From contig NZ_SACL01000007.1 in NCBI RefSeq assembly GCF_004005855.1, positions 186,001 to 250,000 on the forward strand: 64,000 nucleotides of DNA, in the 5' to 3' direction. Shown here piece by piece: positions 19,612 to 42,352 of the stretch. Origin of the DNA: Rhodovarius crocodyli (GTDB lineage Bacteria > Pseudomonadota > Alphaproteobacteria > Acetobacterales > Acetobacteraceae). The position numbers and the translations under genes are program-made. The notes beneath the pieces are model-generated. The model saw nothing but the letters and a program-made list of their open reading frames with translations, was not told the origin of the DNA and ran no database searches. The first letter of the stretch is position 1. Each line of letters opens with the position of its first letter.

Positions 19612-20921
19612 TCCTCGGCGCGCTGCTGCTGATCTGGCCGGCGCTGCTCAACGGCTATCCCATCCTGTTCAGCGATACCGGCGCCTTCCTGGCGCAGACC
19701 ATCGTGCCGCTGATGGTCTGGGACAAACCCTTCTTCTACGGGCCGTTCCTGCATCTGTTCCACTGGCGGATCACCCTGTGGGGGCCGCTGCTGGCGCAGG
19801 GGCTGATCGTGTCGCATCTGGTGTGGCTGGTGATGCGCTCGGTATGGCCTGCCGCGCGCTGGTGGGCGCATCCGGCCTTATGCGCCGCGCTGGCGTTGGG
19901 CACGTCTCTGCCCTGGGTGGTCAGCCTGCTGATGCCCGACATCTTCGCGTCCGTGCTGGTATTGTGCGTGTTCCTGCTGGGGTTCACGGCCCCGCGCGGC
20001 TGGCTGCTGGGCTGGCTGGTGCTGCTGGGCGGCTTCGCGGCGGCCGTGCATCTCTCGCACCTGCCGCTGGCGGGGGGGCTTATCCTGCTCGTCGCGCTGC
20101 TGGCCCGTCGCTGGGGCGCGCTGGCGCGGGCGGCCGCGCCTCTGCTGCTGGCGGTGGTGGCCTTGCTGGGCACCAATCTGGTCGGCAACGGGCGCCTGGC
20201 GCTTTCGCCCTATGGCAGCGTGTTTGCCCTGGCGCGGCTGGTGGCCGACGGGCCCGCCGCCCGCGTGATCGAGGAAGAATGCGCGGCCGGCCGTACCCTT
20301 CACCTGTGCGCCTGGGTCGGCCGCTTCCCGACCGATTCCGACGATTTCCTCTGGAGCGAGGATGGTCCGGTCTGGGCGCAGCGGCAGGACGGCGCACAGC
20401 CGGGCGGCCCCATTTCGCTCGCGCCCGAAGCCGGTGAGATCGTGGGGCTTACCCTGCGCCGCCATCCGCTGGAGGTCGCGCGGCTCGCGCTGGGCAATGC
20501 CGTGGCGCAGATGGGCAAGACGCGCATCGGTGACGCGCTGGTGCCCGACTGGCTGGACGACACGGTGGGGCTGCGCCTGCGCCAGGGCGATTTCCCGCCG
20601 GCCGAGCAGGAGAGGCTGCGCGCCTCGCTGCAGTTCCAGGGGCGGTTGAGCCCGCCCCTGGCCATGCTGCACCCCTGGGTGCTGGTGCTGGCCACGCCCT
20701 TCGCGCTGCTGGCCTGGTGGCGTGCGCACCGGTCCGGGGACCGGCTGCGGCTGGGGCTGGTGGTGTGCTGCCTGGCGGCGCTGCTGGGCAACGCCATCGT
20801 CACCGGTGCCCTGTCCAAGCCGCATCACCGCTACCAGGCACGGGTCATCTGGCTGCTGCCGCTGGCGGCCGTGCTGGGCTGGCAGCCGCCCAGGCCGGGC
20901 AGGGCCGTTCAGCCCGGTTGA
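19602..20921 (+). CDS. Polytopic membrane protein of unknown function
   Basis: The 439-residue product has roughly ten hydrophobic segments. A first loop with FSDTGAFL is followed by a long soluble loop (about residues 215-330) containing two cysteines (EEECAAGRTLHLCAW). The architecture recalls lipid-linked glycosyltransferases of the GT-C type, but no diagnostic motif is seen and the function is unassigned. The start is a GTG at 19602 inside the moaE 3' end; GTG 19608 is also possible. The soluble stretch sits in the C-terminal half, between membrane bundles. Confidence 0.75.
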   Translation: MGVILGALLLIWPALLNGYPILFSDTGAFLAQTIVPLMVWDKPFFYGPFLHLFHWRITLWGPLLAQGLIVSHLVWLVMRSVWPAARWWAHPALCAALALGTSLPWVVSLLMPDIFASVLVLCVFLLGFTAPRGWLLGWLVLLGGFAAAVHLSHLPLAGGLILLVALLARRWGALARAAAPLLLAVVALLGTNLVGNGRLALSPYGSVFALARLVADGPAARVIEEECAAGRTLHLCAWVGRFPTDSDDFLWSEDGPVWAQRQDGAQPGGPISLAPEAGEIVGLTLRRHPLEVARLALGNAVAQMGKTRIGDALVPDWLDDTVGLRLRQGDFPPAEQERLRASLQFQGRLSPPLAMLHPWVLVLATPFALLAWWRAHRSGDRLRLGLVVCCLAALLGNAIVTGALSKPHHRYQARVIWLLPLAAVLGWQPPRPGRAVQPG

Positions 20922-20952
20922 CCGGGGCGCGCCGTCGCGCTCACTTGCGGGC

Positions 20953-21792
20953 ATGGGACGAATCACAGGCAAGGCCCGCATCGCCGGCGTTTTCGGATGG
21001 CCCGTCAGCCATTCCCGCAGCCCGTTGCTGCATAACCACTGGCTGGGCCGCCATGGCATCGACGGCGCCTATATCCCGCTGCCGGCAGCCCCCGAGCGCT
21101 TCGAGCAGGCGGTGCGCGGGCTGATGGCCGCGGGCTTCGCCGGGGCCAACGTCACCATCCCGCACAAGGAGGCGGCCTATGCGCTGTGCGACGTGCGCGA
21201 TGCCGCCGCCGAGCGGGCAGGGGCGGTGAACACGCTGGTGTTCCGGGATGGCCGTATCTTCGGCAGCAACACCGACGGCTATGGCTTCATGGAGAACCTG
21301 CGCGCCCATGCCCCGATGTGGCGCCCCGCGAATGGGCCGGCCGTGCTGCTGGGCGCGGGTGGCGCCGCGCGCGCCATCGCCGCCGCCCTGCTGGATTCCG
21401 GTGTGCCCGAGCTCGTGCTGGTGAACCGCACCGCCGCCCGCGCCCAGGCCCTGGCCGATGCGCTGGGCGGGCCTGTGCGCGTGGCCACGCAGGCACCGCT
21501 CGCCTCCGCTGCCCTGCTGGTGAACACCACCAGCCTGGGCATGACGGGCCAGCCGCCGCTGGAGATCGACCTCTCGCCTTTGCCCGCCCATGCCGTGGTG
21601 GCGGATGCGGTCTATGTGCCGCTGGAAACCGCGCTGATCACCGCCGCACGCGCGCGGGGGCTGGCGGTGGTGCCGGGTCTCGGCATGCTGCTGCACCAGG
21701 CGCGGCCGGGTTTTCATGCGTGGTTCGGCGTGGATCCGCAGGTGGATGCGGCGCTGGAAGCCGCGGTCGCCGGGGATATTCCGCCGCGATGA
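20953..21792 (+). CDS. aroE: Shikimate dehydrogenase
   Basis: The 279-residue enzyme reduces 3-dehydroshikimate to shikimate with NADPH. Substrate-site motifs are present: SHSRSPLLHN, NVTIPHKE (catalytic Lys) and NTDGYG (catalytic Asp). So is the NADP-binding loop GAGGAARAI followed by NRTAARA. The stop overlaps a decoy ATG-AAG-ATC-TAA, after which the true coaE start follows. With coaE and dnaQ it forms an alphaproteobacterial housekeeping cluster. Confidence 0.95.
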   Translation: MGRITGKARIAGVFGWPVSHSRSPLLHNHWLGRHGIDGAYIPLPAAPERFEQAVRGLMAAGFAGANVTIPHKEAAYALCDVRDAAAERAGAVNTLVFRDGRIFGSNTDGYGFMENLRAHAPMWRPANGPAVLLGAGGAARAIAAALLDSGVPELVLVNRTAARAQALADALGGPVRVATQAPLASAALLVNTTSLGMTGQPPLEIDLSPLPAHAVVADAVYVPLETALITAARARGLAVVPGLGMLLHQARPGFHAWFGVDPQVDAALEAAVAGDIPPR

Positions 21793-21802
21793 AGATCTAA
21801 CG

Positions 21803-22402
21803 ATGAAGATTCTGGGCCTGACGGGCGGCATCGGCATGGGCAAGTCCACCGCCAGCCGCAGCTTTCGCCGCCGCGGCGTGCGCGTGTTCGACGCGGATGC
21901 CGCCGTGCACGAACTGCAGCGCAAGGGCGGCCGGGCCGTTCCGGCCATCGGCGCCGCCTTCCCCGATGCCGTCACCGACGGCGCCGTGAACCGCGAGGCC
22001 CTGCGCCGCGCCGTGCTGGGCAAGCCCGAGGCGCTGAAGGTGCTGGAACGCATCATCCACCCCATGGTGCGGCAGGAGCAGCGGCGCTTCCTGGCCCGGG
22101 CCCGGCGCGACGCCCAGCGCCTGGTCGTGCTCGACATCCCGCTGCTGTTCGAGACCCGGCGCGGCCATGAATTCGATGCGGTCGTCGTCGTCTCCGCCCC
22201 GGCCAGCGTCCAGCGCTGGCGCGTGCTGCGCCGCCCTGGCATGACGGAGGAGAGGCTGCGCGCGATTCTCGCCCGCCAGACGCCCGACGCCGAGAAGCGC
22301 CGCCGCGCCGATGTGGTGATCGAGACCGGCACCAGCCGCCACAACACCGACCGCGCGATCCGCCGCCTGGTCCGCCGCCTGAAAGGGGAGACGCGCGCAT
22401 GA
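21803..22402 (+). CDS. coaE: Dephospho-CoA kinase
   Basis: The 199-residue P-loop kinase phosphorylates the 3' hydroxyl of dephospho-CoA, the last step of CoA synthesis. Walker A is GLTGGIGMGKST (Met replaces the common Ser). DADAAVHEL and RIIHPMVR are family landmarks, and IPLLFETR is the lid-proximal segment. The true start is the second of two nearly identical ATGAAGAT starts (21789 and 21803); the first stops after three codons. The stop overlaps dnaQ as ATGA. Confidence 0.94.
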   Translation: MKILGLTGGIGMGKSTASRSFRRRGVRVFDADAAVHELQRKGGRAVPAIGAAFPDAVTDGAVNREALRRAVLGKPEALKVLERIIHPMVRQEQRRFLARARRDAQRLVVLDIPLLFETRRGHEFDAVVVVSAPASVQRWRVLRRPGMTEERLRAILARQTPDAEKRRRADVVIETGTSRHNTDRAIRRLVRRLKGETRA

Positions 22403-23079
22403 GCCGCGAGATCGTGCTGGACACGGAAACCACCGGCATCGAGACCCGCGAGGGCCACCGCGTGATCGAGATCGCGGCGATCGAGCTGTTCAACCTGCTG
22501 CCGACCGGCCGCTTCTATCACGTCACGATCAACCCCGAGCGCGACATCCCGGCGGACGCCACCCGCATCCATGGCTTCACCAACGCGGATGTCGAGAAGT
22601 CGCCCCTGTTCGCCGCCGTGGTCGATCCCTGGCTGGAATTCATGGGCGATGCGCCCATCATCGCCCACAACGCGCCCTTCGATTTCGGCCATCTGGACGC
22701 GGAGCTGAAGCGCCTCGGCCGGCCGCCGCTGAACCCGGCGCTGATGATCGACAGCCTGGCGCTGGCCAAGAAGCGCTTCCCCGGCATGCCCAACAGCCTG
22801 GACGCGCTGTGCCGGCGCTTCGACATCGACCTGTCCGAGCGCACGACCCACAACGCGCTGCTGGACGTGAAGCTGCTGGCCAAGGTCTATCTGGAGCTGC
22901 GCGGCGGCCGGCAGCCGGGCCTGGTGCTGACCAGCAACGCCTCAGGCGAGGTGCTGGTGACGGAGGAACGCAAGGAACGCTCCCTGCTGCCCATCCTGGT
23001 CCCGCCTGAGCGCGAGGAGGCCCACAAAGCCTTCCTGGCCAAGATCAAGGACCCGATCTGGCTGCGCGAGGCCGGCTGA
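22399..23079 (+). CDS. dnaQ: DNA polymerase III epsilon subunit (3'-5' exonuclease)
   Basis: The 226-residue proofreading exonuclease has Exo I DTETTG (residues 7-12), Exo II AHNAPFDFGHL and Exo III TTHNALLDVKLL, so all catalytic acids and the HxxxxD histidine are present. The length matches alphaproteobacterial DnaQ. The C-terminal tail after about residue 185 would bind the polymerase alpha subunit. It is translationally coupled to coaE by a 4-bp overlap. Confidence 0.95.
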   Translation: MSREIVLDTETTGIETREGHRVIEIAAIELFNLLPTGRFYHVTINPERDIPADATRIHGFTNADVEKSPLFAAVVDPWLEFMGDAPIIAHNAPFDFGHLDAELKRLGRPPLNPALMIDSLALAKKRFPGMPNSLDALCRRFDIDLSERTTHNALLDVKLLAKVYLELRGGRQPGLVLTSNASGEVLVTEERKERSLLPILVPPEREEAHKAFLAKIKDPIWLREAG

Positions 23080-23154
23080 CCCCCGCGCCATCCGGGGCAG
23101 CCATTCCTTTCCCGGGCTTGCGCGCGCGTCATTCCGGCAGCAAGAGGCAAAGCC

Positions 23155-24396
23155 ATGAGCGAGCTTCTTTCCCTGTCCAAGGACCGCATCCGTATCCTGC
23201 TGCTGGAAGGCATCAACGATACGGCCGTCTCCTTTTTCGAGCAGAACGGCTACGCCACCGTCACGCGCCTGAAGAAGGCGCTGGATGGTGAGGAGCTGAA
23301 GGAGGCGCTGAAGGGCGTCCATATCCTGGGCATCCGCTCCCGCACCCAGGTCACCGAGGAAGTGCTGGAGGCGGCGGACCGGCTGGTGGCCGTGGGCTGC
23401 TTCTGCATCGGCACCAACCAGGTCGACCTGAAGGCGGCGCGTGAGCGCGGCGTGGTGGTCTTCAACGCCCCCTTCTCCAACACCCGTTCGGTGGCGGAGC
23501 TGGTGATGGGCGAGGTCATCACCCTGCTGCGCGGCGTGTTCCCGAAATCGGTCGCCGCCCATGCCGGCGTCTGGTCCAAGACGGCGGACGGTTATCATGA
23601 GGTGCGCGGCCGCACGCTCGGCATCGTGGGCTATGGCAGCATCGGCAGCCAGCTGTCGGTGCTGGCCGAGGCCTTCGGCATGCGCGTGCTGTTCCACGAT
23701 ACCCAGGCCAAGCTGCCGCACGGCAATGCCAGCCGCTGCACCTCGCTGGATGAGCTGCTGATGTGGTCCGACATCGTGACCATGCATGTGCCGGAGACGC
23801 CCGCCACCATGGGCATGATCGGCGCCGACCAGTTCGCGAAGATGCGCCCCGGCGCCATCTTCATCAACAACGCCCGCGGCACGGTGGTGGACCTGCATGC
23901 CCTGGCCGATGCGCTCAAGAGCGGCCATCTGGCCGGCGCCGCGGTCGACGTGTTCCCCGAGGAGCCCGCCCGCAACGGCGACCCGTTCGAGACGCCCCTG
24001 CAGGGCATCGAGAACGTGATCCTGACGCCGCATATCGGCGGCAGCACCGAGGAAGCCCAGGCCCGCATCGGTGAGGAAGTGGCCGGCAAGCTCGTCGACT
24101 ACTCGGACACGGGTGCGACCATGGGTGCCGTGAACTTCCCGCAGGTGGCGCTGCCCCCGCAGGCGACCGGCGTGCGCTTCATGCATGTGCACCACAACGT
24201 CCCGGGCATCCTGAACGGCATCAACAACGTGTTCGCCAAGCGTGGCCTGAACATCGCCGGCCAGTACCTGCAGACCGACGGCGACGTGGGCTATGTGGTG
24301 GTGGATGCGGGTGCCACGCGGGACAGCCAGGCCATCCTGCAGGAACTGCGCGAACTGCCGGGTACGATGCGGGCGAGGCTGCTGTACGAGCGGTGA
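23155..24396 (+). CDS. serA: D-3-phosphoglycerate dehydrogenase
   Basis: The 413-residue enzyme starts serine synthesis by oxidising 3-phosphoglycerate. The Rossmann fold GIVGYGSIGSQLSVLA lies near residue 160. The catalytic triad is in NNARGTVVD (Arg), PEEPA (Glu) and TPHIGGSTEEAQ (His). A C-terminal ACT domain (about 338-413) suggests feedback control by serine. The size equals the E. coli form. An AGAGGCAAA ribosome site precedes the ATG. The gene ends against a structured repeat facing a convergent gene. Confidence 0.94.
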   Translation: MSELLSLSKDRIRILLLEGINDTAVSFFEQNGYATVTRLKKALDGEELKEALKGVHILGIRSRTQVTEEVLEAADRLVAVGCFCIGTNQVDLKAARERGVVVFNAPFSNTRSVAELVMGEVITLLRGVFPKSVAAHAGVWSKTADGYHEVRGRTLGIVGYGSIGSQLSVLAEAFGMRVLFHDTQAKLPHGNASRCTSLDELLMWSDIVTMHVPETPATMGMIGADQFAKMRPGAIFINNARGTVVDLHALADALKSGHLAGAAVDVFPEEPARNGDPFETPLQGIENVILTPHIGGSTEEAQARIGEEVAGKLVDYSDTGATMGAVNFPQVALPPQATGVRFMHVHHNVPGILNGINNVFAKRGLNIAGQYLQTDGDVGYVVVDAGATRDSQAILQELRELPGTMRARLLYER

Positions 24397-24406
24397 GGGT
24401 GCGCGC

Positions 24407-24567
24407 CGGGGCTTTGCCCCTGACCACCCCGCCAGGAGATAATATCTCCTGGACCTGATAGAAGTTTGGCGCCTCTGCTGAATAAGCGGGGCGCCAGTTT
24501 CATTATAATAATCAATGCTATCAGGGTTTTGTGCCAACTTCCCGGGGTCCAGGGGCAGAGCCCCTGG
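24407..24567. repeat. Modular structured repeat, copy 1
   Basis: Modules in order: hairpin GGGGC-TTT-GCCCC (24408-24420); a near-perfect palindrome with 10-bp arms CCAGGAGATA/TATCTCCTGG (24432-24452); a long hairpin whose 7-bp base is TGGCGCC/GGCGCCA (24467-24496); an AT-rich strand (TTTCATTATAATAATCAATG); and hairpin CCAGGGGC-AGA-GCCCCTGG (24549-24567). The same modules recur in opposite orientation at 39256-39472. It fills the gap between the convergent serA and glycosyltransferase genes, where it could act as a bidirectional terminator. Confidence 0.85.
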
Positions 24568-24574
24568 TGGGGGC

Positions 24575-26665
24575 TTACGGGGGTGACGCCCCCGTCAACA
24601 GCGCCTCCAGCGCCCAATCCTCCAACCCGACCAGCGCCGCGCCCCCGCCCCTCAGCCACGCCACGAAGCGCGCCACATCCTCGGGCTTCGCCAGGTCATA
24701 GCCGCTGCGCAGCATGGGCGTGGTGTCCCAGATGTGGTGCAGCAGCCTGGGCACGCCTTCGGTGGGCTTGCGCATCACGGCCTCGAACATCGCGAAGGGG
24801 TCCTCGCGCCAGCCGGTATAGCGTTCCAGGTGCAGCCGCCGGGCCATGGCCGGAATGCGCGCGCCGCTGGCGAAATGCCCGAAGGCATAGCCATGGCCGC
24901 GCCAATCCTCCTGCGCATGGCGCGCCATCAGCGCGGCATAGCGGTCGGTCAGGGCCCTGAGCGCCTCGTCGCGGATCGGCGCGAACAGGCCCGTGTGGCG
25001 CGACAGCCGGTCCGGCACCTGCGGGTCATAGCCCGAGAAATGGAACAGCTGCAGCGCCTGGCCGTCCACCTGCCAGAAATCGCCGTGCCGGGTCAGGCTG
25101 TGCTCGGACAGGTTCCAGTAGGCCAGGTTGAGGCCCGGGTGGCGCTCCACATGCAGCGCGCCGGTGAAGCCCGGCATCAGGTCCATGAACTTCTGGTCCA
25201 CGAACAGCCCTTCCTCGGGCATGGCCAGGCAGTTCAGCAGCAGATGGTCGGCCCACCAGTCCAGCAGGGCCAATGCCTCCGGCCGTGACGACGCGCCGAT
25301 GAAGCCCAGGTTGAAGGTGCCGGCGCGCATGATGGACAGGTCGGTGGGCGCCATGTGCCCCACGGCGGGGCGGCGCAGATGCGGCGTCAGCACCAGGGCG
25401 GCATCGCGCCACAGCCGCTCCGTCACCTCGTCCATGCGGGCCAGGGCCAGCATGTCGGGGTCCAGATACACCGCGCTGGCGAAGCCGCAGCGCCCCAGCA
25501 GCAGCCGCAGCAGATAGGGCTTCAGCGCCGTGCAGAATTCCAGGATCGAGTAGCGGAACGCGAAGCCCTGGAAATCCGGGATGCCGAGCTGCCCGGCCAG
25601 GATCACCTCCAGCCCCGCGGGCAGGTTCGGCGGCAGCTCTCGCTCGGCCAGGCACAGGATGAAGCGTGCCTCCGGGTGGTGCTCCGCCAGGCTGTCGCGC
25701 AGCGCCAGCACCTGCGCCATGTAGTTGGCCGAGGCGATGGTGCAGAAGGCCAGCGCACCTGTCTGGGCCGGGCGCAGCGGCAGGTCGGATTCGGCCGGCG
25801 AGCGCGCCTTGAGCAGCGCCGCCACCTGGCCATCGGCGGCATAGGCCCGGATCTCGCGCACCGCATCGCCATGGCCGGGGGCGAGTTCCAGCGCCGCGCC
25901 ATAGCTGGCCAGGGCTTCCTCGTGCCGGCCTTGGCGCTTCAGCGCGTGGCCCAGCTGCAGGCGGGCCTCGGCCATGCGCGGCGCCAGGGCCACGGCCTCG
26001 CGATAGGCGGCCTCGGCGGCGGGCAGGTCGCCGGCTTCCTTCTCGGCATGGCCGCGCTGGATCCAGAGGTCGGCATCCTGCGGCACCAGGGCCAGATACC
26101 GGGCATAGAAGGATGCGGCCTCGGCCCAGCGGCGGGCATCGCGCGCGGCATCGGCGGCGGCGATCAGGCGCGCGCCCTCGGAACCCCGCCGGGGCGGCAG
26201 GCGTCGGCCCTCGGCGATCAGCGCCTTCATGCGCTCGGCCTCATCGGCCGCGTCCTCCAGCCCCGGATCGGCGGCGCGCGCGGCCTCATAGGCGGCCAGC
26301 GAGCCCTCGGCATCGCCCATCAGCTTGCGCAGATGACCGAGGTTCAGGTGCAGGTCGGCGTCGCGCGGGGTCAGCTCCAGCGCCATGCCATAGCTGACGG
26401 CGGCGGCATCCAGGTCGCCGCTTTCCTTCTCGCAATGGCCGCGCTGCACCCAGATGGCGGCATCGCGCGGGTGGTCGGCCAGATGCACGGCATAGAAGGC
26501 GGCGGCATCCGCCCAGGCGCGATCCTGGCGCGCCTGTTGCGCGGCCTCCAGCGGCGGCAGGTCAGGCCGCACGGGCTGTGCCGGCGCGGGCGCTTCGGCC
26601 GGGCGGCGCATGCGCGCGAAGATGGCGGTCCAGGCTCGGTCCAATGGGGTTTCCCTTCCTGTCAC
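24575..26665 (-). CDS. TPR-repeat protein with C-terminal glycosyltransferase domain
   Basis: The product has 696 residues. The N-terminal 285 form two blocks of tetratricopeptide repeats (AIWVQRGHCEKESGDLDAAA and DLWIQRGHAEKEAGDLPAAE are near copies). From about residue 310 it is a GT-A glycosyltransferase-like domain with YLDPDMLAL as a DxD-type metal motif. It is probably a cytoplasmic enzyme modifying a polysaccharide or protein. The start is a GTG at 26665; ATG 26611 is an alternative. The last codons, encoding GASPP, fall in the GC-hairpin flank of the repeat. Confidence 0.82.
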   Translation of the reverse strand: MTGRETPLDRAWTAIFARMRRPAEAPAPAQPVRPDLPPLEAAQQARQDRAWADAAAFYAVHLADHPRDAAIWVQRGHCEKESGDLDAAAVSYGMALELTPRDADLHLNLGHLRKLMGDAEGSLAAYEAARAADPGLEDAADEAERMKALIAEGRRLPPRRGSEGARLIAAADAARDARRWAEAASFYARYLALVPQDADLWIQRGHAEKEAGDLPAAEAAYREAVALAPRMAEARLQLGHALKRQGRHEEALASYGAALELAPGHGDAVREIRAYAADGQVAALLKARSPAESDLPLRPAQTGALAFCTIASANYMAQVLALRDSLAEHHPEARFILCLAERELPPNLPAGLEVILAGQLGIPDFQGFAFRYSILEFCTALKPYLLRLLLGRCGFASAVYLDPDMLALARMDEVTERLWRDAALVLTPHLRRPAVGHMAPTDLSIMRAGTFNLGFIGASSRPEALALLDWWADHLLLNCLAMPEEGLFVDQKFMDLMPGFTGALHVERHPGLNLAYWNLSEHSLTRHGDFWQVDGQALQLFHFSGYDPQVPDRLSRHTGLFAPIRDEALRALTDRYAALMARHAQEDWRGHGYAFGHFASGARIPAMARRLHLERYTGWREDPFAMFEAVMRKPTEGVPRLLHHIWDTTPMLRSGYDLAKPEDVARFVAWLRGGGAALVGLEDWALEALLTGASPP

Positions 26666-26698
26666 CAGCGTAATGGAAGGGCGCCCGGGCCGGAAGGC

Positions 26699-27844
26699 TC
26701 ACGCCGGCCGCAGCGGCAGGGCGGTGAGGGAGCGGAAAGTCGGCGAATGCGCCCATTGCAGGGGGCCGTCCGGCAGTTTCGCCTGTTCCAGCAAGGGCAG
26801 CACCACCGGCAGGAAGTGCCCGGCGATGCTGCGCGCCAGCGCCGCACCCGCGCAGAAGTGAATGCCGTGCCCCAGCGCCATGTGCCGGCCGGGCTTGCGG
26901 GTGATGTCGAATTCCTCGGGCCGGTCGAAAGCGCGCTCATCGCGGTTGGCGCTGCCATAGAGCAGCATGATCTTGCTGCCGGCAGGCATGGTCACGCCGT
27001 GCATCTCGGTATCCTCCAGCAGCAGGCGTGCGAAACGCTGGGCCGGGGTCTCGTAGCGCAGCGCCTCCTCGATGGCCTGGGGCAGCAGGGCAGGGGCCTC
27101 CCGCAGCAGCCGGGCCTGGGCGGGGTTGCGCATGAATGCCAGGCAGGCATTGGCCAGGAAGCTCGACGTGCTCTCGAACCCCGCGCCGAACACCGCGCGC
27201 GCCATCCAGACCGTGCTTTCCGGCTCCAGATCCATGGCCAGCAGGGCGCTGATCATGTCCTCGCCGGGGTTGTCGCGGCGCTTCTCGACCTGGGCTGCGG
27301 TCAGGCGGAACATCTCGGCCTGGGCGGCCTCGCCTTCGGGCGTGCGGGCGCGCGTCACGGGGTCCCGGAACAGGGAGATGTCGAGCAGGCGCTTGAACTC
27401 CGCGAGGTCCGCCCCCTCCAGCCCCAGCAACTGCGCCATGATGGCGCCCGAGAGCGGGGAGGTGACATCCCGCACCAGGTCGAAGGGCGCTTGGCGGCCG
27501 TGCAGCAGGCGGGCCACCGTCTCGGCGATGAAGGCTTCCTCCTTCGCGACCTGGCGGCGGTTGAAGGCCTCGTTCACCAGGCCGCGCAATTCGCCATGGC
27601 GCGGCGGGTCCACGCTGCCCACCGTGCGGCCCAGCTTGGCGCGGCTGTCGTCGATCACGTTGCCGCCGGTGTTGGAAAAGCGCGGAACACTGTGCAGTGC
27701 GCTGAAAACATCGGCATGCCGGGACAGCACGAAGCATTTCGCCCCCTCGGACCAGTAGACCGGGTGGCTATCCCGCAGCACCCGATAGAAGGGATAAGGG
27801 TCCGCGTGGACGGCGAAATCGAAGGGGTCGAAGCTGAACGACAT
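26699..27844 (-). CDS. Cytochrome P450
   Basis: The 381-residue soluble bacterial P450 has I-helix GAGFESTSS (AGxET-like), K-helix ExxR in EEALRYETP, and the heme-thiolate loop ALGHGIHFCAGAALAR with the cysteine near residue 331. It hydroxylates an unknown small substrate using ferredoxin partners not encoded here. Starts at 27844 (MSFSFDPF) and 27868 are both possible. Each lies in a CATG palindrome shared with the divergent dehydrogenase, so the two genes touch or overlap at their 5' ends. Confidence 0.9.
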   Translation of the reverse strand: MSFSFDPFDFAVHADPYPFYRVLRDSHPVYWSEGAKCFVLSRHADVFSALHSVPRFSNTGGNVIDDSRAKLGRTVGSVDPPRHGELRGLVNEAFNRRQVAKEEAFIAETVARLLHGRQAPFDLVRDVTSPLSGAIMAQLLGLEGADLAEFKRLLDISLFRDPVTRARTPEGEAAQAEMFRLTAAQVEKRRDNPGEDMISALLAMDLEPESTVWMARAVFGAGFESTSSFLANACLAFMRNPAQARLLREAPALLPQAIEEALRYETPAQRFARLLLEDTEMHGVTMPAGSKIMLLYGSANRDERAFDRPEEFDITRKPGRHMALGHGIHFCAGAALARSIAGHFLPVVLPLLEQAKLPDGPLQWAHSPTFRSLTALPLRPA

Positions 27845-28745
27845 GGCGGACAAGCGTAACGGTATCATGGTGCTGGCAACCAGCGAGGAGACGCGGCGGA
27901 TCGCGGCCTCCCTGCGGGAGATGGGCGATTATCCGGTCTGGCTGCACGGGGATGAGGCACCGCTGGAGGATGTCTCCTGCCTGGTCGCCTTCCGGCCCCA
28001 GGCGGGGCTGATGAGCAGCCTGCCGAACCTGACCCTGGTGCACGGCACCGGCGCCGGGGTGGACGGCATCCTGATGGCGCCCGACCTGCCGGACGTGCCG
28101 ATCGGCCGCGTGATCGCCGAGGAAGTCTCCAAGCCCATGACGCATCACGTGCTGCATGCCGTGCTGCGCCACCTGCGCCAGGGCGAGGCCTTCGCGGCGC
28201 TTCAGCGCAAGAGTGAATGGAACCGGCTGCTGACGCGCGACTACGCGACCTTCCCGGTGGCGGTGCTGGGCACCGGCGCGCTGGGCGGGGCGGTGATCGA
28301 GGCGTTGAACTTCCTGGGCATTCCCGCGCGCGGCTGGTCCCGTTCGTCGGGCACCACGCTGGAGGAAGTGCTGACCGGCGCGATGGCCGTGGTCATCCTG
28401 TTGCCCGCCACCCCGGCGACCAAGGGCGTGCTGGGCACGCGGGAGCTGGCGCTGCTGGCCGACGACGCGGCCGTGATCTCGGTCGGCCGCGGCGGCCAGG
28501 TGGAGGAGGAGGCCCTGCTGGCCGAGCTCGATGCCGGGCGGCTGTCTGCCTATCTGGACGTGTTCGCGAAGGAGCCGCTGCCGGCCGACAGCCGCTTCTG
28601 GCAGCATCCCCGCGTGGTGCTGACGCCGCATATCGCGGCCGCCCCCAGCGCGCCGGCCGTGGCGCGCTGCGTGCTGGAAAGCATGGAGCGGGTGGCGCGG
28701 GGCGAGCCGCCGGTCTTCGCGGTGGATCGCGCGAAGGGCTACTAG
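27843..28745 (+). CDS. D-isomer-specific 2-hydroxyacid dehydrogenase (GhrA-like)
   Basis: The 300-residue enzyme reduces 2-oxo acids such as glyoxylate or hydroxypyruvate with NAD(P)H. The Rossmann motif is [13 protein letters not shown] near residue 140. The catalytic residues are Arg in [11 protein letters not shown], Glu in FAKEPLP and His in LTPHIAAAP. Start 27843 overlaps the divergent P450 start; ATG 27867 (MVLATSEET) would leave a 22-bp gap. The stop TAG forms a CTAG palindrome with the stop of the convergent chemoreceptor gene. Confidence 0.87.
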
Positions 28746-30088
28746 GCCGCCCTGACCTCCGCCAGGAACTCGCCCACCGAGGCCTGAAGCGCCGCGCTGT
28801 GTCCCGACAGCGCGGTGGCCGCGTCGCGCACCGTATCGGCGGCCTCTGCCGCGCCCTGGGCCGTGCCGCTCAGCGCGTTCATGTCGGCCACCACGCGGCT
28901 GGTGCCCTGGGCCACCTGCTCGGCGCTGCGCGCGATCTCCTGGGTGGCGGCGCGCTGCTGCTCCACCGCGGCCGCGATGGCGCCCGACGCCTCGCCCACC
29001 TCATGCACGATGTCGCCCAGGCTGCGGATGGCGTCGATGGTGGCCTGGGTGGCATCGCGGATGGCCGAGACCTGGCTCACGATGTCCTCGGTCGCGCGGC
29101 CGGTCTGGGTGGCCAGCTGCTTCACCTCGCTGGCGACGACCGCGAAGCCCTTGCCGGCCTCTCCGGCGCGGGCGGCCTCGATGGTGGCGTTGAGCGCGAG
29201 CAGGTTGGTCTGGCCCGCGATGTCCGTGATCATCCGCACCACGTCACCGATCCGCCCGGCGCGCTCGGACAGGGTGCTGATCGCGCCGTCGGTCTGCGCC
29301 GCCGTATCGCTGGCGCGGCGGGCCACATCGGCGGTGCGCGCCACCTGGGCCGTGATCTCGCTGATGGAGGCCAGGAGCTCCTGCACGGCGGAGGCCACGC
29401 TGTTCACATTCTCCGCCGCCTCGGCCGAGGTGCGGGCGGCACTTTCGGTGCCGCCGCGGGTGGTGGCCACCACCCCGGCCATGGTGCCGGCCTGCTGGTG
29501 GACGGAGCCCGCCGTCTCGACCAGCGCGCCCACCACCCCCTGCACCTTGCCCTCGAAGCTGGCGGTGAGTTCCGTCAGGCGCCGGTCGTAGCTGGCCTTG
29601 TTCTCGTCGAGGTAGGTGGAGATGGCGATGTCCATGTCGAGCATGATCGCCTGGTTCAGCGCCCGCATCAGCCGGGCGGTGCGGTCCTGCGCCGCGCCAG
29701 GGTTCAGCCGGCTGGAATAGAGGCGCGTCGCGACATCGTACAACGCCGAGGCGACCTTGCCGTAGCCCCCGATATACCAGCGCGGGTCCAGGCCGATGCG
29801 GCTGTGCGTGGCCCCGATACGCCGGACGGAGGTGTAGTAGGCCTCGTCGAAATTGCCCGAGAACAGCCGCGCCCAATGCTGCTTCTGATGATCCTTCGCG
29901 TGGTTCATCATCGCGGGGTTCTTGAAGTAGGCGCTGAGGACCGGGTGCTTGGCCACATCGGCGTAGAAGGCATCGAGGATGCCGTCGATGTGGCGCGCCA
30001 GCACGGGCTGGAAGGCCCGCAGCGTGGCACTCGTCTCCTGGTCAATGCCGAGGCCGTAGAGGCGCTCCTGAAGCGAGTTCTGGCTCAT
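28742..30088 (-). CDS. Globin-coupled methyl-accepting chemotaxis protein
   Basis: The soluble chemoreceptor has 448 residues. The N-terminal 170 match the protoglobin sensor, with [20 protein letters not shown] and [20 protein letters not shown] (heme-pocket region). About residues 180-448 are the methyl-accepting signalling domain, with the hairpin tip [29 protein letters not shown]. No membrane segment is present. It probably senses oxygen or another gaseous ligand and signals to CheA/CheW. ATG 30088 is preferred over GTG 30097 because AAGGTG lies at the right distance. No other chemotaxis genes are nearby. Confidence 0.93.
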
Positions 30089-30182
30089 CGGGATCACCTT
30101 TTTGTTCCAAGGCGGAAATGAACCCGTGTTGGTTAATCAGCGGTGGACGGCGCCAGAAAAAATCCGCGCCGCCTGATCCGCA

Positions 30183-32435
30183 TCAACTTCCAGATGCTTG
30201 CTGGAGCATGGAGCGCAGCCGCGCGGGCGTGACCGGCAATTGCGCGATATTGATTCGATATTGAATCGCATTCTCAATGGCCGATGCAATAGCCGCGCCG
30301 GCCGCCGTGATGCCGCCCTCGCCCGCGCCCTTCACGCCCAGCGGGTTGATCGGGCTCGGCGCGTCCTCCAGCACCAGGGATTCGACCATCGGCACCTCAT
30401 TCAGCGTGGGCATCAGGTAGTCGGCGAAGCTGGCCGATAGGGGCTGCCCGTCCTCACTGTAGATGAACTCCTCGAACAGGGCCCCGCCGATGCCCTGGGC
30501 CGCGCCGCCATGAATCTGGCCTTCGACCAGCATGGGGTTCACGGAGCGGCCGACGTCAAACGCCACGACGAAGCGTTCGACCACCATGCCGAAGGTCTCG
30601 GCATCCACCCGCACCACGGCCAGGTGCACGCCGTAGGGATAGGTCATGTGGTCGGTGGTGAAGCTGGCTTCCGCCGTCAGGGCGGGGGTGCCGTCATCCG
30701 CTGCGCAGGCGGCCGCGAGCTCACCGAGCGGGATGCCGCAACCATCCAGCGTGATCGAAGCCCGATCGCCCTGCAGCAGCTGCGCGGCCTTGGCCAGCAG
30801 GCGTTCCTTCAGCTTCTCGGCGGCCATGGTCACGGCCGCCCCCGTCATCACCGTGACGCGGGAGGCGAATGCCCCCATGCCGCGCGCGATGCGGTCGGTC
30901 TGCCCATGCACCACCGTGCAGTCCGTATGCGCGACGCCGAGGACGGAGGCCGCGACCTGCGCCATCACCGTCTCGACCCCCTGGCCGACCGAGGCCGCAC
31001 CCGTGACGATCTCCACCGCGCCGGTGGCGGCGATGGTGATGATCACGTCGTCAAACGGGCCGAGGCCGCTTTTCTCGACGAAATAGGCGAGGCCGAGCCC
31101 GACCTTCTCACCCGCCGCGCGGCGGGCCGCGAGTGTCGCTTCGAGGGCCGGCAGATCCACCCCGGCTTCGAGCTTCGCGAGCAGCCCGGCGAAATCGGCG
31201 CTGTCGTACACCACCTCGGTGCCCAGCGCGTCCAGCCCGCGCCTGAACGGGATCTGCTCGGCCGGGATCAGGTTGCGGCGGCGGATCTCGACCCGGTCGA
31301 GCCCGAGCCGGTCCGCCACGTGGTCCATCAGCCTTTCGCGCACGAAGGTGCCTTCATAGCGCCCGGGCGCGCGATAGGTGCCGGCCGGGGTCTTGTTCGT
31401 CAGGCGGATATGGCCGGTGGCCGCGAAGGCCGGCACGCGGTAGGGGCCGGGCAGCATCCCCGCCGTCAGGTCCGTGACGGTCGAGGCATGGGTGCGCACA
31501 TAGCCGCCCTGATCGACGAAGAACTCATCCTCGATGCCGAGCACCACGCCGTTCGCGTCCACCGCCGCGCGCAGCCGGTGCAGCTGATCGCGGGAGTGGT
31601 TGGCCGCCAGCAAGTGTTCCTTGCGGTCCTCGATCCATTTCACCGGGCGCTTCAACCGAAGCGCCGCAAGGCAGGCCAGCACATCTTCCGGGTACACCTC
31701 GCCCCGGATGCCGAAGCCGCCGCCGACATGGCCTTCGAACAGGTGGAACTGTTCGGGCGGCAGGGACAGCATCTTGGCGATGGCCAGCCGGTTCGCATGC
31801 GGTACCTTGGACGCGCCGTGCATTTCCAGCCGGTTCAGATCGGCGTTCCAATAGCCGATGGCCCCGCGCGTCTCCATCGGCACGCCGGTGTGCCGGCCGA
31901 CACCCAGTTCCAGCTCGAACACATGGGCGGCGGCGGCGAAGGCGGCCGGCAGGTCGCCGTAGGATTTGCGCACCACCCCGGCTTCCGTCGTCAGGCCCGG
32001 GGCGAACTCTCCAGGGCTCTGCACGGCGGTCATCACCGGGTCCAGCTCCTCGATATCGGCGAAGACCAGCTCCGCCGCGTCCTCGGCGGCGTAGGGGCTG
32101 TCGGCGATGACGATGGCCACCGGTTCGCCGACGTAGCGCACCATCCCCTGGGCCAGGATGGGCTGGCGATAGTCACCCAGGCCCGGGATGCGCATCTGCC
32201 GGAAGTCGATGGGCGGGATCTCCGCCACATCGGCCCCGGTCCAGACCGCGACCACGCCGGGGCTGTCCAGCGCGTCGGCCGTGTCGATCTCCAGGATGCG
32301 GCCATGGGCGATGGGCGAGCGCACCACCCGCATGTGCAGCTCACCGGGGAAGCGGATATCGGCGGCGAAGCGACCCTGGCCGCGCAGCAGCGGCGGGTCT
32401 TCCAGCCGCGTTACGCTGCGGCCGATTCCGCCCAT
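30183..32435 (-). CDS. Xanthine-dehydrogenase-family molybdopterin-binding subunit (CoxL-type), second copy
   Basis: The 750-residue catalytic subunit of a molybdenum hydroxylase holds the molybdopterin cytosine dinucleotide cofactor. The substrate-access segment is VPMETRGAIGYW, the cofactor loop EGHVGGGFGIRGEVYPED, and the catalytic Glu lies in GVKGAGEGGITAAG near the C-terminus. The CO-dehydrogenase VAYRCSFR loop is absent, so CO is not the substrate. It overlaps the 2Fe-2S gene by 25 bp. Together with the paralogous subunit upstream it may share one 2Fe-2S and one FAD partner. Confidence 0.9.
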   Translation of the reverse strand: MGGIGRSVTRLEDPPLLRGQGRFAADIRFPGELHMRVVRSPIAHGRILEIDTADALDSPGVVAVWTGADVAEIPPIDFRQMRIPGLGDYRQPILAQGMVRYVGEPVAIVIADSPYAAEDAAELVFADIEELDPVMTAVQSPGEFAPGLTTEAGVVRKSYGDLPAAFAAAAHVFELELGVGRHTGVPMETRGAIGYWNADLNRLEMHGASKVPHANRLAIAKMLSLPPEQFHLFEGHVGGGFGIRGEVYPEDVLACLAALRLKRPVKWIEDRKEHLLAANHSRDQLHRLRAAVDANGVVLGIEDEFFVDQGGYVRTHASTVTDLTAGMLPGPYRVPAFAATGHIRLTNKTPAGTYRAPGRYEGTFVRERLMDHVADRLGLDRVEIRRRNLIPAEQIPFRRGLDALGTEVVYDSADFAGLLAKLEAGVDLPALEATLAARRAAGEKVGLGLAYFVEKSGLGPFDDVIITIAATGAVEIVTGAASVGQGVETVMAQVAASVLGVAHTDCTVVHGQTDRIARGMGAFASRVTVMTGAAVTMAAEKLKERLLAKAAQLLQGDRASITLDGCGIPLGELAAACAADDGTPALTAEASFTTDHMTYPYGVHLAVVRVDAETFGMVVERFVVAFDVGRSVNPMLVEGQIHGGAAQGIGGALFEEFIYSEDGQPLSASFADYLMPTLNEVPMVESLVLEDAPSPINPLGVKGAGEGGITAAGAAIASAIENAIQYRINIAQLPVTPARLRSMLQQASGS

Positions 32436-32911
32436 TTGCCCATCTCCTTCGCGGCGGCCGTCACGGCGCGCACGATGTTGGTGTAGCCCGTGCAGCGGCA
32501 CAGGTTGGAGGACAGGACATGGCGCAGCCGTTCCTCCGTGACGGGTTCGGGCTGTTCCAGCATCCAGGTCGCCAGCATCAGGAAACCCGGCGTGCAGAAG
32601 CCGCATTGCAGCCCGTGCTTCTCCCAGAAGGCGCGCTGCAGCGGGCTGAGCGTGTCGCCGTCGGCCAGCCCTTCGACGGTGCGGATTTCCGCCCCTTCGG
32701 CCTGGATGCCGAACATCAGGCAGGAACGCACGGGCGCGCCGTTCACGATGATGGTGCAGGCCCCGCACACCCCGTGCTCGCAGCCCAGATGGGTACCGGT
32801 GAGGTGCAACTCCTCCCGCAGCATGTCGGCCAGCGACATGCGGGGCACCACATCGGCCTCGACCTTCTGGCCGTTCACGGTGCAGCACACCGTGACTTTC
32901 GGCTCGCTCAT
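32411..32911 (-). CDS. (2Fe-2S)-binding subunit of molybdenum hydroxylase (CoxS-type)
   Basis: The 166-residue electron-transfer subunit has both expected clusters. A plant-ferredoxin-type site uses C44, C49, C52 and C64 (LGCEHGVCGACT), and a C-terminal four-helix site uses C103, C106, C138 and C140 (LQCGFC and NLCRC). It passes electrons from the molybdenum centre to the FAD subunit. It sits between two catalytic-subunit genes, overlapping one by ATGA and the other by 25 bp, so all three are probably translated from one mRNA. Confidence 0.95.
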   Translation of the reverse strand: MSEPKVTVCCTVNGQKVEADVVPRMSLADMLREELHLTGTHLGCEHGVCGACTIIVNGAPVRSCLMFGIQAEGAEIRTVEGLADGDTLSPLQRAFWEKHGLQCGFCTPGFLMLATWMLEQPEPVTEERLRHVLSSNLCRCTGYTNIVRAVTAAAKEMGKWAESAAA

Positions 32912-35250
32912 GGGGATGTCTCCTGGGCTGCGCGGATCGCGGCGCGCACGCGCTGCGGGGTCGCGGGCATTTCGAACAGCTGCACGCCGAAGGGTTGCAG
33001 CGCGTCGCAGATGGCGTTGATGACGGCGGCGGGGGCCGCGATGGAGCCGCCTTCGCCCACGCCCTTGGCCTGCAGCACCGTGGCGCCGGTCAGGGTCGCG
33101 AGGTGATGCACCTCGATATCCGGCACCTCGGCCATGGTGGGGGGGATGAAATCCGCGAAGCTGCCGGTCAGGATATTGCCGTCGGCGTCGTAGATGATTT
33201 CTTCCAGCAGCGCGTTGCCGATGCCCTGGGCGACACCGCCCTGCACCTGGCCGTCCACGATCATCGGGTTGATCAGCCGGCCGGCATCCTCGACCACGAT
33301 GTAGCGCAGGATGCGCGTGTTGCCGGTTTCGGCGTCCACCTCCACCACCGCCACATGGCAGGCGTTGGAGAAGGTGCCCTCCGGGTCGTAGGTCGCGGCC
33401 TCGTTCAGGTCGTAGCCGATCTTTTCGCTGATCGGGCCCGCCGAGTGGTAGACGGTGCGCGCGATGGTATCGAGGCTGATGGAAGCCCCGCCGGGGATCA
33501 GCGCCATGCCGGCTTCCAGGCGCACCTGGCTTTCCTCACCCTGCAGCAGCACGGCGGCCGCGCGCTTCAGCTTCTGCGCCAGCTTGCCGGCCGCCAGCTT
33601 GCTGGCCCCGCCCGCAATCACCAGCGACCGGCTGGCGAAGGTGCCCCAGCCATAGGGCGTGCGGTCGGTGTCGCCATGGATGATACGGATGCGCTGCACA
33701 TCCACCCCCACTTCCTCGGCGATGATCTGCGCGAGGGTGGTGCGCAGCCCCTGCCCATGCGGGGAGGCACCGATCCGCGCCTCCACCTCGCCCGAGGGGG
33801 TCATGCAGATTTCCACCCGCTCATAGCCGGGGGTGATTTCCATGCTGCGCGCGGCGAAGGCGGGGGTGCCGTAGCCCGTGCGCTCGTTGATCACGGAAAA
33901 CCCGATGCCGAGATAGCGGCCCTGCTCGCGCGCGGCCTGCTGGCGGGCGCGGAAACCGGGGAGGTCCGCGACCTCCACCGCCTTTTCCATGGTCTCCAGG
34001 TAGCTTGCCTCATCGAGCACCATGTTGGTCGGCGTGCGATGGGGAAAGACGGTGACGAGGTTGCGGCGGCGGATCTCGATGGGGTCGATGTTCAGCCGCT
34101 TCGCCGCGACCTCCATCAGCCGTTCCAGCGCGAAGCTGACCACGGGCCGCGACACGCCGCGATAGGGCGCCATGACGGCGGTGTTGGTGGTGATGCCGCG
34201 CGCGTGGGTGCCGTATTCGGCGACCTTGTAGGGCCCGGCGTATTCCGCCAGCGCCATCAGCGGCTCCACCCCGCAGGTGGTCGGGTAGCAGGAGAAGGCG
34301 CCGATATTGGCCAATATCTCCACATCCAGGCCGCGCATCACGCCCTGCCCGTCAAAGGCGCCGCGCACGATGTGATGCTGGTCGCGCGAATGGGCGGAGG
34401 CGATCAGGTTCTCGCGCCGGTCCTCGATCCAGGCGACCTCGGTGCGGTATTTCCGGGCCAGCCAGACCAGCAGCACATATTCGGGGAACAGCGACATCTT
34501 CTGCCCGAAGCCGCCGCCGACATCGGGGGCGACCACGCGCAGATCGGCTTCGGGCATGCCGATGCAATCCGCGATGCCGGTGCGCAGCATATGCGGCATC
34601 TGCACCGAGGCATGCAGGCTGACGCGGCCCGATGCCTTGTCGAAGCTGGCGGCACCCCCGCGCGTTTCCATCGGCGAAGCGTTCTGCCGGCGGGAACGGA
34701 CGTCGATCTCGACGATGGTGCTCTCGGCCAGCACGGCGTCGAGGCCCGGGGTGCGGATGCGCCCCTCCACGATGGTGTTGGTGGGCGCCATGGGGTGGAC
34801 CACGGGCGCGCCGGGGCCGGCCGCGCTGTCCAGGTCCACCACCGCCTGCTCGGGCTCGATGTCCAGGAACACCGCATCCGCGATGTCCTCGGCCTCGCGC
34901 TGGGTGGGGGCGACCACCGCGACCACGGGCTGGCCCACATAGTGCACGCGGTCACGCGGCAGGATGGGCTGCTCGATCGCCACATAGTTGAAGCGGCCGA
35001 GGCGCGGGACGATGGGCTTCAGCGCCGCCACGTCCCCGCCCGTGATGACCAGCACGCCGCGCGGCAGGTCGGGCTTCTCGATACCCCTGATGACGCCGGC
35101 CGCGACCGGGCTGCGCACGAAGACCACGGCGCGGGAGCCCACGGCGATGTCGGCCACGAAGCGGCCCTCGCCGCGCACCAGGGCGGGGTCTTCCAGGCGG
35201 GGGATGTTCCGCCCGATCCAGTTCATCGGCTCGTCAGGCAACCCGGCCAT
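32908..35250 (-). CDS. Xanthine-dehydrogenase-family molybdopterin-binding subunit (CoxL-type), first copy
   Basis: The 780-residue catalytic subunit is paralogous to the one downstream. Both begin with an IGRxxxRLEDPxLxRGxGRF segment. Here the motifs are SPMETRGGAASF, APDVGGGFGQKMSLFPEYVL and the catalytic-Glu loop AKGVGEGGSIAAPAA. There is no CO-dehydrogenase cysteine loop. The probable role is hydroxylation of an aromatic or N-heterocyclic compound with water as oxygen source. The start at 35250 overlaps the FAD gene stop (TGATG); MNWIGRN at 35226 is an alternative start. Confidence 0.91.
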   Translation of the reverse strand: MAGLPDEPMNWIGRNIPRLEDPALVRGEGRFVADIAVGSRAVVFVRSPVAAGVIRGIEKPDLPRGVLVITGGDVAALKPIVPRLGRFNYVAIEQPILPRDRVHYVGQPVVAVVAPTQREAEDIADAVFLDIEPEQAVVDLDSAAGPGAPVVHPMAPTNTIVEGRIRTPGLDAVLAESTIVEIDVRSRRQNASPMETRGGAASFDKASGRVSLHASVQMPHMLRTGIADCIGMPEADLRVVAPDVGGGFGQKMSLFPEYVLLVWLARKYRTEVAWIEDRRENLIASAHSRDQHHIVRGAFDGQGVMRGLDVEILANIGAFSCYPTTCGVEPLMALAEYAGPYKVAEYGTHARGITTNTAVMAPYRGVSRPVVSFALERLMEVAAKRLNIDPIEIRRRNLVTVFPHRTPTNMVLDEASYLETMEKAVEVADLPGFRARQQAAREQGRYLGIGFSVINERTGYGTPAFAARSMEITPGYERVEICMTPSGEVEARIGASPHGQGLRTTLAQIIAEEVGVDVQRIRIIHGDTDRTPYGWGTFASRSLVIAGGASKLAAGKLAQKLKRAAAVLLQGEESQVRLEAGMALIPGGASISLDTIARTVYHSAGPISEKIGYDLNEAATYDPEGTFSNACHVAVVEVDAETGNTRILRYIVVEDAGRLINPMIVDGQVQGGVAQGIGNALLEEIIYDADGNILTGSFADFIPPTMAEVPDIEVHHLATLTGATVLQAKGVGEGGSIAAPAAVINAICDALQPFGVQLFEMPATPQRVRAAIRAAQETSP

Positions 35251-36104: not shown

Positions 36105-36171
36105 GCTGGCACCTTTAGCGAGGCTTGAGTGATTTGAGTATGATTAAATCATCCGGCCGCGCAAGCCCTGT

Positions 36172-36762: not shown

Positions 36763-36896
36763 CGCGAACCCCCTGGAACTGGCCCGGCGAGAGGGCCGGG
36801 CTTCATGCAGGCTCAAGCGATGGCCTGCCTGGCTTCCATGCCACAGCGGCCCGGAAGTCGCCAGCGTGACGCGATCTTCGCGACTATGCGGAGCGA

Positions 36897-36936
36897 TTTC
36901 AATCAAACTAACGCCTTGCTTCAATGAAATTCAAAC
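36897..36936. promoter_or_regulatory. Phased TTCAA repeats in the divergent promoter region
   Basis: TTCAA occurs at 36898, 36920 and 36930, that is 22 and 10 bp apart, close to whole helical turns. The stretch is a locally AT-rich island in the 265-bp gap between the XRE-cupin regulator and the divergent cupin gene. It is a candidate operator for that regulator, by position only. Confidence 0.4.
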
Positions 36937-37027
36937 GATAGGCTTTCAGTGCTACTCAAGCGCCCCCAGGCCCCTGCCGGATGATGATGCCGGTAAGCCG
37001 CCCCGATTGGCAAAGGACAGGAATGGC

Positions 37028-37417: not shown

Positions 37418-37419
37418 CC

Positions 37420-37800: not shown

Positions 37801-37804
37801 TCCG

Positions 37805-38659: not shown

Positions 38660-38661
38660 GC

Positions 38662-39219: not shown

Positions 39220-39255
39220 GGGCGGTGACCGGGGGCATTGCCCCCTGAACCCCCA

Positions 39256-39472: not shown

Positions 39473-39475
39473 CAT

Positions 39476-42352
<2,877 letters not shown>

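Follow-up and report, generated by a model that had tools for sequence, protein, structure and literature searches.

A mosaic, REP/BIME-like hairpin array at gene ends of Rhodovarius crocodyli, probably a bidirectional terminator or insulator

The stretch of Rhodovarius crocodyli DNA analysed here (64,000 nt, in the following called the window) carries two copies of a composite hairpin array that belongs to a family with 75 or more sites genome-wide in this species. With moderate confidence, the array is read from its sequence, fold and position as a REP/BIME-like mosaic located at gene ends that probably works as a bidirectional terminator or insulator and would have spread and been homogenised; it probably marks or helps form RNA 3' ends. 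According to the mechanism proposed, the element would act as RNA: transcripts entering from either side would fold the far arm into hairpins, these would halt the polymerase or shield the 3' end, and convergent transcripts would be kept from entering the opposite gene; the copies would have spread and would later have been homogenised within a species through module exchange between copies. High-GC bacteria have fewer classical U-tract terminators, and how their convergent genes stay separated is poorly understood; a recurrent, structure-conserved array with exchanged cores offers dozens of natural replicates for termination, RNA stability and antisense interference, and it indicates that REP-like behaviour occurs without a REP transposase.

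The sequence-only reading had described two copies of a smaller unit. Both copies were recovered, with all of the described modules in place and both 16-nt loops matching as written; the total of two has to be replaced by the number given above, and the unit was drawn too small, as further GC hairpins flank the core. The two cores lie in opposite orientations (copy 1, 24427-24574, +; copy 2, 39277-39426, -), and the left-end hairpin sequence CCAGGAGATAATATCTCCTGG, up to three mismatches allowed, did not occur in 100 shuffles of the window. The parts are the following:

24408-24420, + strand: copy 1, left outer GC hairpin, loop TTT, 11 nt past the stop of gene 23155-24396 (+; serA-like by eye)
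24427-24574, + strand: copy 1, core element, covariance-model match of 151 bits
24432-24452, + strand: copy 1, left-end hairpin of type A, CCAGGAGATAATATCTCCTGG, from the sequence
24454-24461, + strand: copy 1, arm CCTGATAG, which complements CTATCAGG at 24518-24525
24467-24496, + strand: copy 1, central stem-loop TGGCGCC ... GGCGCCA with an inner helix within the 16-nt loop, from folding and covariation
24497-24516, + strand: copy 1, AT-rich tract 3' of the central stem, from the sequence
24549-24567, + strand: copy 1, right GC hairpin, loop AGA, the usual right-end hairpin being absent immediately upstream of it
24577-24595, + strand: copy 1, right outer GC hairpin ACGGGGG...CCCCCGT, overlapping the final codons of the called convergent gene 24575-26644 (-)
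39231-39245, - strand: copy 2, outer GC hairpin, 11 nt past the stop of gene 38662-39219 (+)
39256-39276, - strand: copy 2, inner GC hairpin CCAAGGGGC-TCT-GCCCCTTGG, from the sequence
39277-39426, - strand: copy 2, core element, covariance-model match of 176 bits
39284-39304, - strand: copy 2, right-end hairpin, inside GTCCAGGGCCGCTACGGTCCTGGCGGG of the minus strand, from the sequence
39357-39386, - strand: copy 2, central stem-loop with inner helix, at the top of a terminator-like scan of 20000-39999 with 14 pairs
39401-39421, - strand: copy 2, left-end hairpin of type A, from the sequence
39433-39445, - strand: copy 2, inner GC hairpin (loop AGA on the + strand), from the sequence
39456-39472, - strand: copy 2, outer GC hairpin; the stop of gene 39476-42358 (-; read by eye as gcvP) is 3 nt away
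55559-55600, - strand: third site, half visible, two GC hairpins past the stop of gene 55601-56608 (-), adjoining a poly-G run

Copy 2 extends in total from 39231 to 39472 and possesses the right-end hairpin (39284-39304) that was lost in copy 1. The location of both copies between convergent genes was confirmed with codon-model gene calls: copy 1 is flanked by a gene end at 24396 and the called end of the convergent gene at 24575, copy 2 by gene ends at 39219 and 39476. The outer hairpin of copy 1 (24575-24595) codes for the final codons of the called convergent gene; therefore, the element overlaps coding sequence at this place. At the equivalent of the third site (55559-55600), a full element is present in the sister species (genome G002). 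The poly-G run next to this site (31 G at 55523-55553) and another one of more than 20 G beside the element at locus L064 are both found where an element arm would be expected, and are probably sequencing or assembly artefacts at strong hairpins.

The whole array reaches about 250 bases and is symmetric: usually one or two outer GC hairpins and an end hairpin are followed by the central stem-loop with its AT-rich strand, after which the hairpins are mirrored again. From 5' to 3', the core reads CCCCGCC-hairpin-ACC, TGATAxxAG, TTTGGCGCC, a variable stem-loop, GGCGCCA, the AT-rich strand, TATCAGG, GGCGCCAACTCCCCGG and GGTCC-hairpin-CGGGG. In standard copies the inverted arms CCCCGCCAGGA-N10-CCTGGACC are common to both ends, i.e. 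terminal inverted repeats of the MITE kind are present. Variants of the left end hairpin include CCAGGAGATA-A-TATCTCCTGG and CCAAAGGCC-GAAA-GGCCTTTGG, those of the right one CCAGGGCCG-CTA-CGGTCCTGG, CCAGGACCG-AGCA-CGGTCCTGG, CCAGGACAC-ACT-GTGTCCTGG and CCAGGAAAC-TGA-GTTTCCTGG. Flanking GC hairpins of the type GGGGC-NNN-GCCCC were found at least once in 107 of 109 gene-end arms of 15-130 nt (with a looser pattern, two in 71, one in 35 and three in 1 of 107 arms). A second core, family 2, occupies the identical slot at 7 of 11 inspected R. crocodyli hairpin sites without a family-1 core (L125, L131, L133, L138, L139, L148, L149); it has a long central stem with compensatory changes. At L141 and L146, behind AAGGGGCNCTGCCCCTTGG, the inner GC hairpin switches at one common point into TCTTTCTTT, and a transposase-like reading frame (by eye) is located downstream of this switch at L146; insertion sequences are known to target REPs, and one may target the inner GC hairpin here.

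The minimum of 75 sites in the R. crocodyli genome, fetched together with their flanks, is composed of 64 right-end sites and 11 additional left-end sites. The right-end pattern gave 64 genome matches (control 0), the left palindrome with up to two mismatches 62 forward and 61 reverse matches (reversed control 0); the latter correspond to about 61 sites and not to double this number because the sequence is near-palindromic. A DNA search of the genome, in which the best 40 of 103 candidates were scored, yielded 44 matches, 40 of them with E <= 3e-21. Both standard ends are kept in 52 of the 75 sites, with an end-to-end spacing of 79-151 bp (mostly 139-144 or 146-151), and most of the remaining sites have variant end hairpins; L107 consists of a right end alone, and L112 (copy 1), L113, L117 and L122 are without a recognisable right hairpin. 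Public plasmids and phages, a set from which records close to R. crocodyli may be absent, gave no DNA match to the element.

The supposition drawn from the loops of two copies, that the fold and not the letters is conserved, was borne out by covariation in the inner loop, the feet of the outer hairpins and the alignment of the core. A covariance model trained on 29 R. crocodyli copies and run over 100 of 122 fetched sources gave 103 matches (72 in R. crocodyli and 31 in the sister species). In the alignment of these 103 sequences, which was fitted to the structure and is thus biased towards it, and in which kinship among copies inflates the counts, two-sided changes occurred in 24 of 31 pairs across the two species, 92.5% of 3148 cells paired versus 84.1% (sd 0.3) after shuffling, pairing fell to 32-53% when the partner was slid by 1-3 columns, and the covariation score was 0.279 versus 0.131 (sd 0.005) for shuffles. 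Tests independent of the alignment, i.e. arm swapping in the inner stem-loop and the pairing of outer-hairpin feet, agree with conservation of the fold. The loop covariation extends well past the two window copies: 75 distinct loops (77 found, one spurious and one duplicate removed, two reoriented) had a mean fold of -18.76 kcal/mol versus -17.16 (sd 0.23) with swapped arms, and none of 500 arm-swap shuffles was as good. For the GCTGG-type loops (n=11, including copy 1) the same test lacked significance, 97 of 500 shuffles doing equally well; for the other loops none of 500 shuffles was as good in R. crocodyli and one of 500 in the sister species. In the feet of the inner GC hairpins (four positions), 344 of 396 cells pair in R. 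crocodyli (175 expected) and 207 of 252 in the sister species (106 expected); in the outer feet of R. crocodyli it is 234 of 408 (164 expected). RNAalifold on the 29 R. crocodyli copies alone detected almost no covariation (1 of 30 pairs), which emerged once divergent R. crocodyli copies and the sister species entered the alignment. The wobble cells are distributed with opposite polarity (G.U versus A.C: 82 versus 1 in the right end hairpin, 5 versus 21 in the left one, 149 versus 83 in the central stem), so that the wobble of each end hairpin stays G.U when read outward from the core; this fits RNA or single-stranded DNA as the conserved form, and inheritance from few founders could contribute. 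Rfam 15 gave no match at the elements of the window at gathering score, and a search of 7 loci up to E = 1 just five sub-threshold miRNA/CRISPR matches.

With regard to the neighbouring genes, the predicted tendency of the copies to lie between convergent genes was upheld (41 of 73 placeable sites): the 75 sites comprise 41 convergent, 31 tandem and one divergent junction (a lone right end), one contig edge and one overlap with a gene call, and the 61 junctions of the window 9 convergent (two of which hold the copies), 9 divergent and 43 tandem ones. At tandem sites the element has the orientation of the genes in 14 cases and the opposite one in 17, i.e. no preference. In complete elements the distance from core to gene end has a median of 53 nt (86 sides; 40-65 nt in 68 of them), that from core to gene start of 171 nt (17 sides; 40-65 nt in none), and the nearest hairpin begins at a median of 6 nt past the stop codon (15 nt or less in 91 of 107). 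The family thus shows what is typical of REP/BIME in the broad sense: many palindromic extragenic copies, a position downstream of genes, rare divergent sites and conservation of fold over sequence. REPs of Escherichia coli at 15 nt or less from a stop codon are described in PMC12306157 as able to stall ribosomes; by analogy, an influence of the element on translation would be a further possibility. Six of the nine convergent junctions of the window overlap or are within 4 nt of closure; three are wider, two of these carry the copies, and the third (53163-53253) holds a different hairpin-like sequence.

A family-wide DNA search (299 genomes, two candidates scored per genome) gave matches at E <= 0.001 in 8 of 299 genomes including R. 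crocodyli, the sole other strong one being the sister species; within the genome collection, Rhodovarius lipocyclicus (NCBI: Roseomonadaceae, Acetobacterales) was the one named species in which the exact right end was found. The inner GC hairpin pattern was found 161 times in R. crocodyli (control 3), 143 times in the sister species (control 1) and 1-14 times in seven further congeners; the left palindrome, at one mismatch, occurred 57 times forward and 55 times reverse in R. crocodyli and in none of 8 congeners. Forty loci of the sister species fetched by the hairpin pattern comprised 25 convergent and 12 tandem junctions, two positions within gene calls and one contig edge, and several of them consisted of single hairpins only. 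The array layout of this species equals that of R. crocodyli, the end hairpins differ, and at least three cores occupy the slot: family 1, family 2 with a long central stem of the type GAAAGTTTGGGG...CCCCAAACTTTC (19 bp), and family 3, TTGAAAAAAGGCCGGAGGGGAC-ATC-GTCCCCTCCGGCCTTTTTCAA, in which A-tract, GC stem and T-tract are arranged as in a bidirectional intrinsic terminator. Such terminator-type cores are seated in the slots of L186, L191, L211 and the ortholog of the left gene of L068. The sister species also has the inner GC hairpin amplified as a 32-bp tandem repeat of up to three units (L166, L249, G002:C20:10006-10082).

Four junctions with both flanks conserved contained the element in both species with different end hairpins, three of which (L048/L182, L114/L188, L076/L207) were drawn from loci preselected for elements, the fourth (gcvP, L096/L166) being fetched through its protein; at L076/L207 the left outer hairpins are nearly letter-identical and the left end hairpin is different. 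The gcvP end of seven other congeners showed no such element (two GC hairpins in G003 and one hairpin in G008, the gene being found in part in G004 and G008), and serA orthologs in other genomes provided no comparable junction. To avoid choosing gene ends on the side of the sister species, 20 convergent junctions of R. crocodyli were searched in its genome, with 30 matches among the best 40 candidates scored. Only one junction, L083, was matched as a whole: the full element of R. crocodyli stands there opposite a 37-nt gap with one hairpin in the sister species. The other 29 matches are orthologous gene ends of the sister species; an element was recognised at 10 of them by the pattern and at another 3 by eye. 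The 10 exceed the 6.5% expected as a rough upper bound if 143 elements with two ends each are spread over an assumed 4400 genes (p = 9e-6). The cores at these 13 ends were, by eye, family 1 in 6 cases, family 2 in 4, a bidirectional terminator in one and others in two. Among the 16 ends without the element, some have an ordinary terminator (L091L, L058L, L098R, by eye) and some a single GC hairpin, and four, at which no terminator is visible, overlap or almost touch the neighbouring gene. As different cores are present at orthologous gene ends, the gene-end address tends to be conserved between the species while the core may change. A reading of the element junctions as synteny breakpoints was dropped: among 20 such junctions both sides could be placed in the sister species for 11, one of them syntenic, versus 11 placed and 6 syntenic among 20 element-free controls (convergent 2 of 6, tandem 4 of 5), with the best 40 candidates scored in each search so that unplaced sides may be misses (Fisher p 0.06 against all controls, 0.51 against convergent ones). 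Three genomes of another genus, g4 (L037, L038, L039, L045, L046, L047), contain the right-end half only, the middle being different and sometimes inverted; compensatory stem changes are seen there (GCCC/GGGT, GCAC/GTGT, GCGC/GCGT), and on their sequence these halves are a distant relative of the element.

The claim of a dispersed family holds good, the copies being scattered over the genome at gene 3' ends. One copy deserves attention with respect to spread: a single IMG/VR contig with the exact right end (5201 bp identical to R. crocodyli locus L097; L097/L267) has the element flanked by the genes of a major head protein (phrog_3437, 1e-64) on one side and of a tail protein (phrog_394, 6e-46; tail tubular phrog_9239, 2e-12) on the other. 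The location in a prophage-like contig makes an insertion into acquired DNA likely. Phage T7 has a terminator at the corresponding position. In five related phage records, the interval following the capsid gene contains a hairpin with T-run in Vibrio phage 1.179.O and measures 12-15 nt in HTVC010P, Hodr and Dunaliella viridis virus SI2; in MT838907 no hairpin with T-run was seen. As one case, the prophage copy would support spread into acquired DNA as well as a terminator role.

A bidirectional terminator role is plausible in view of the position of the array, the terminator-type core of the sister species and this prophage copy. A T-rich tail (at least 5 T in 8 nt) follows 3' of the central stem on the + strand of the element in 41 of 49 cases and on the - strand in 3 of 49; the one-sided tail and the even orientation at tandem sites argue against a plain U-dependent terminator. 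The terminator-like consensus scan of 20 kb (20000-39999) found 9 sites versus 7.0 (sd 2.6) in shuffles, i.e. no excess. Termination assisted by Rho at stable hairpins, which PMC2817692 reports for the REPs of E. coli, would match the even orientation better than release at a U-tract. As a more tentative extension, for which we would claim somewhat less than even confidence, the arrays might be gene-end cassettes: a covarying hairpin frame would be tied to particular stop codons, and the cores (family 1, family 2, bidirectional terminator) would have replaced one another at the same site as species diverged, through gene conversion or site-specific exchange; 3'-end signals would in this way evolve as interchangeable parts.

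Several features could also be accounted for by a MITE-like non-autonomous transposon, with the end hairpins as transposase binding sites and the gene-end siting as tolerated insertion or a target preference for GC hairpins, namely the inverted arms at both ends, the clustering of the 52 complete cores at 139-144 and 146-151 bp, the prophage-like copy L097/L267 with its likely insertion into acquired DNA, and the full element at L083 opposite the single hairpin in the 37-nt gap of the sister species. This explanation is nevertheless unlikely. A REP-type (Y1) transposase, which the sequence-only reading had proposed to look for, was not found: PF01797 (Y1/RAYT) gave 0 matches in the R. crocodyli genome (99.5% complete, 48 contigs) in a search that was positive in 5 of 14 genomes including E. 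coli. The two recognised ends lie within about 150 bp of each other, and hence no gene-bearing version was seen among sites with both ends recognised; target-site duplications were not seen by eye in the fetched R. crocodyli copies, and no clean insertion appeared among the compared junctions, most occupied junctions not being comparable as empty and filled owing to the different gene order of the sister species. Furthermore, insertion alone would leave unexplained that the arrays start a few nt past stop codons, tandem gaps included, and that alternative cores are present at the same gene ends.

A supercoil-related DNA role has been proposed for the BIMEs of E. coli. Accordingly, the array might be a structure acting at the DNA level (a site for gyrase or a nucleoid protein, or a cruciform) where convergent transcription accumulates positive supercoils: the sites have a convergent bias, the long imperfect palindrome could extrude, and E. 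coli BIMEs bind gyrase and IHF according to PMC2817692. As 31 of 73 sites are tandem with the element abutting the stop codon there too, and as the G.U polarity and the terminator-type core of the sister species point to RNA, this is regarded as improbable. A slightly lower probability still is given to functionless repeats, spread and homogenised by recombination and retained at gene ends as harmless; the species-specific homogenisation is consistent with them (the left palindrome of R. crocodyli occurring, at one mismatch, in 0 of 8 congeners), whereas the occupation of identical gene ends by differing cores speaks against them, as do the compensatory changes that two species show in the inner helix, the end hairpins and the outer GC hairpins.

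The preferred reading, a terminator- or insulator-like gene-end element, places the array next to the REP/BIME repeats, with which it shares many palindromic copies, inverted pairs, a mosaic build, a position in tandem and convergent gaps near stop codons and GT pairing in stems, as far as these are described in PMC3733652, PMC2817692 and PMC12306157. In the RepRanger account (PMC12306157), the alphaproteobacterium Lichenicola cladoniae is listed with 1,369 REPs under a generic palindrome definition; CGTC repeats are given as absent from Acetobacteraceae in PMC3733652. Unlike REP/BIME, the present element has neither a GTAG tag nor a Y1/RAYT gene (among 146 outer GC hairpins in gene-end arms, GTAG was found near 0 and CGTC near 3), and it is a longer composite (up to about 250 bp) with swappable central cores. 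It is, then, an element of a known kind in its REP/BIME position, palindromy, GT pairing and mosaic build, for which the tag and transposase tests fail. REPINs consist of a spacer flanked by two inverted hairpin ends, an arrangement also seen here; in contrast to REPINs with a RAYT, PF01797 was not found and the spacer contains a covarying stem-loop, and membership of the RAYT/REPIN system was abandoned since the genome is without a PF01797 match. Bidirectional intrinsic terminators likewise lie between convergent stop codons, and the core slot of the sister species can be an A-tract/GC-stem/T-tract terminator, but the family-1 core is T-rich on one strand only and set in a repeated multi-hairpin array. 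Bacterial MITEs of the ERIC, NEMIS and Correia type measure 100-250 bp and have terminal inverted arms and dozens of copies; the present family agrees in these respects and differs in that no parent element was recognised, no target duplication was seen and the gene-end siting is strict. Integron attC sites, brought to mind by GTT/AAC motifs near the stems, were rejected, as by eye the boxes do not match the attC consensus. A description of the element itself was not found in the open-licence literature on REPs, bidirectional terminators, Alphaproteobacteria/Acetobacteraceae and Rhodovarius. Apart from the element, the window contains on its - strand (43905-44093) tandem glycine riboswitch aptamers (Rfam RF00504, 60.5 and 51.7 bits) with apparent gcv genes downstream.
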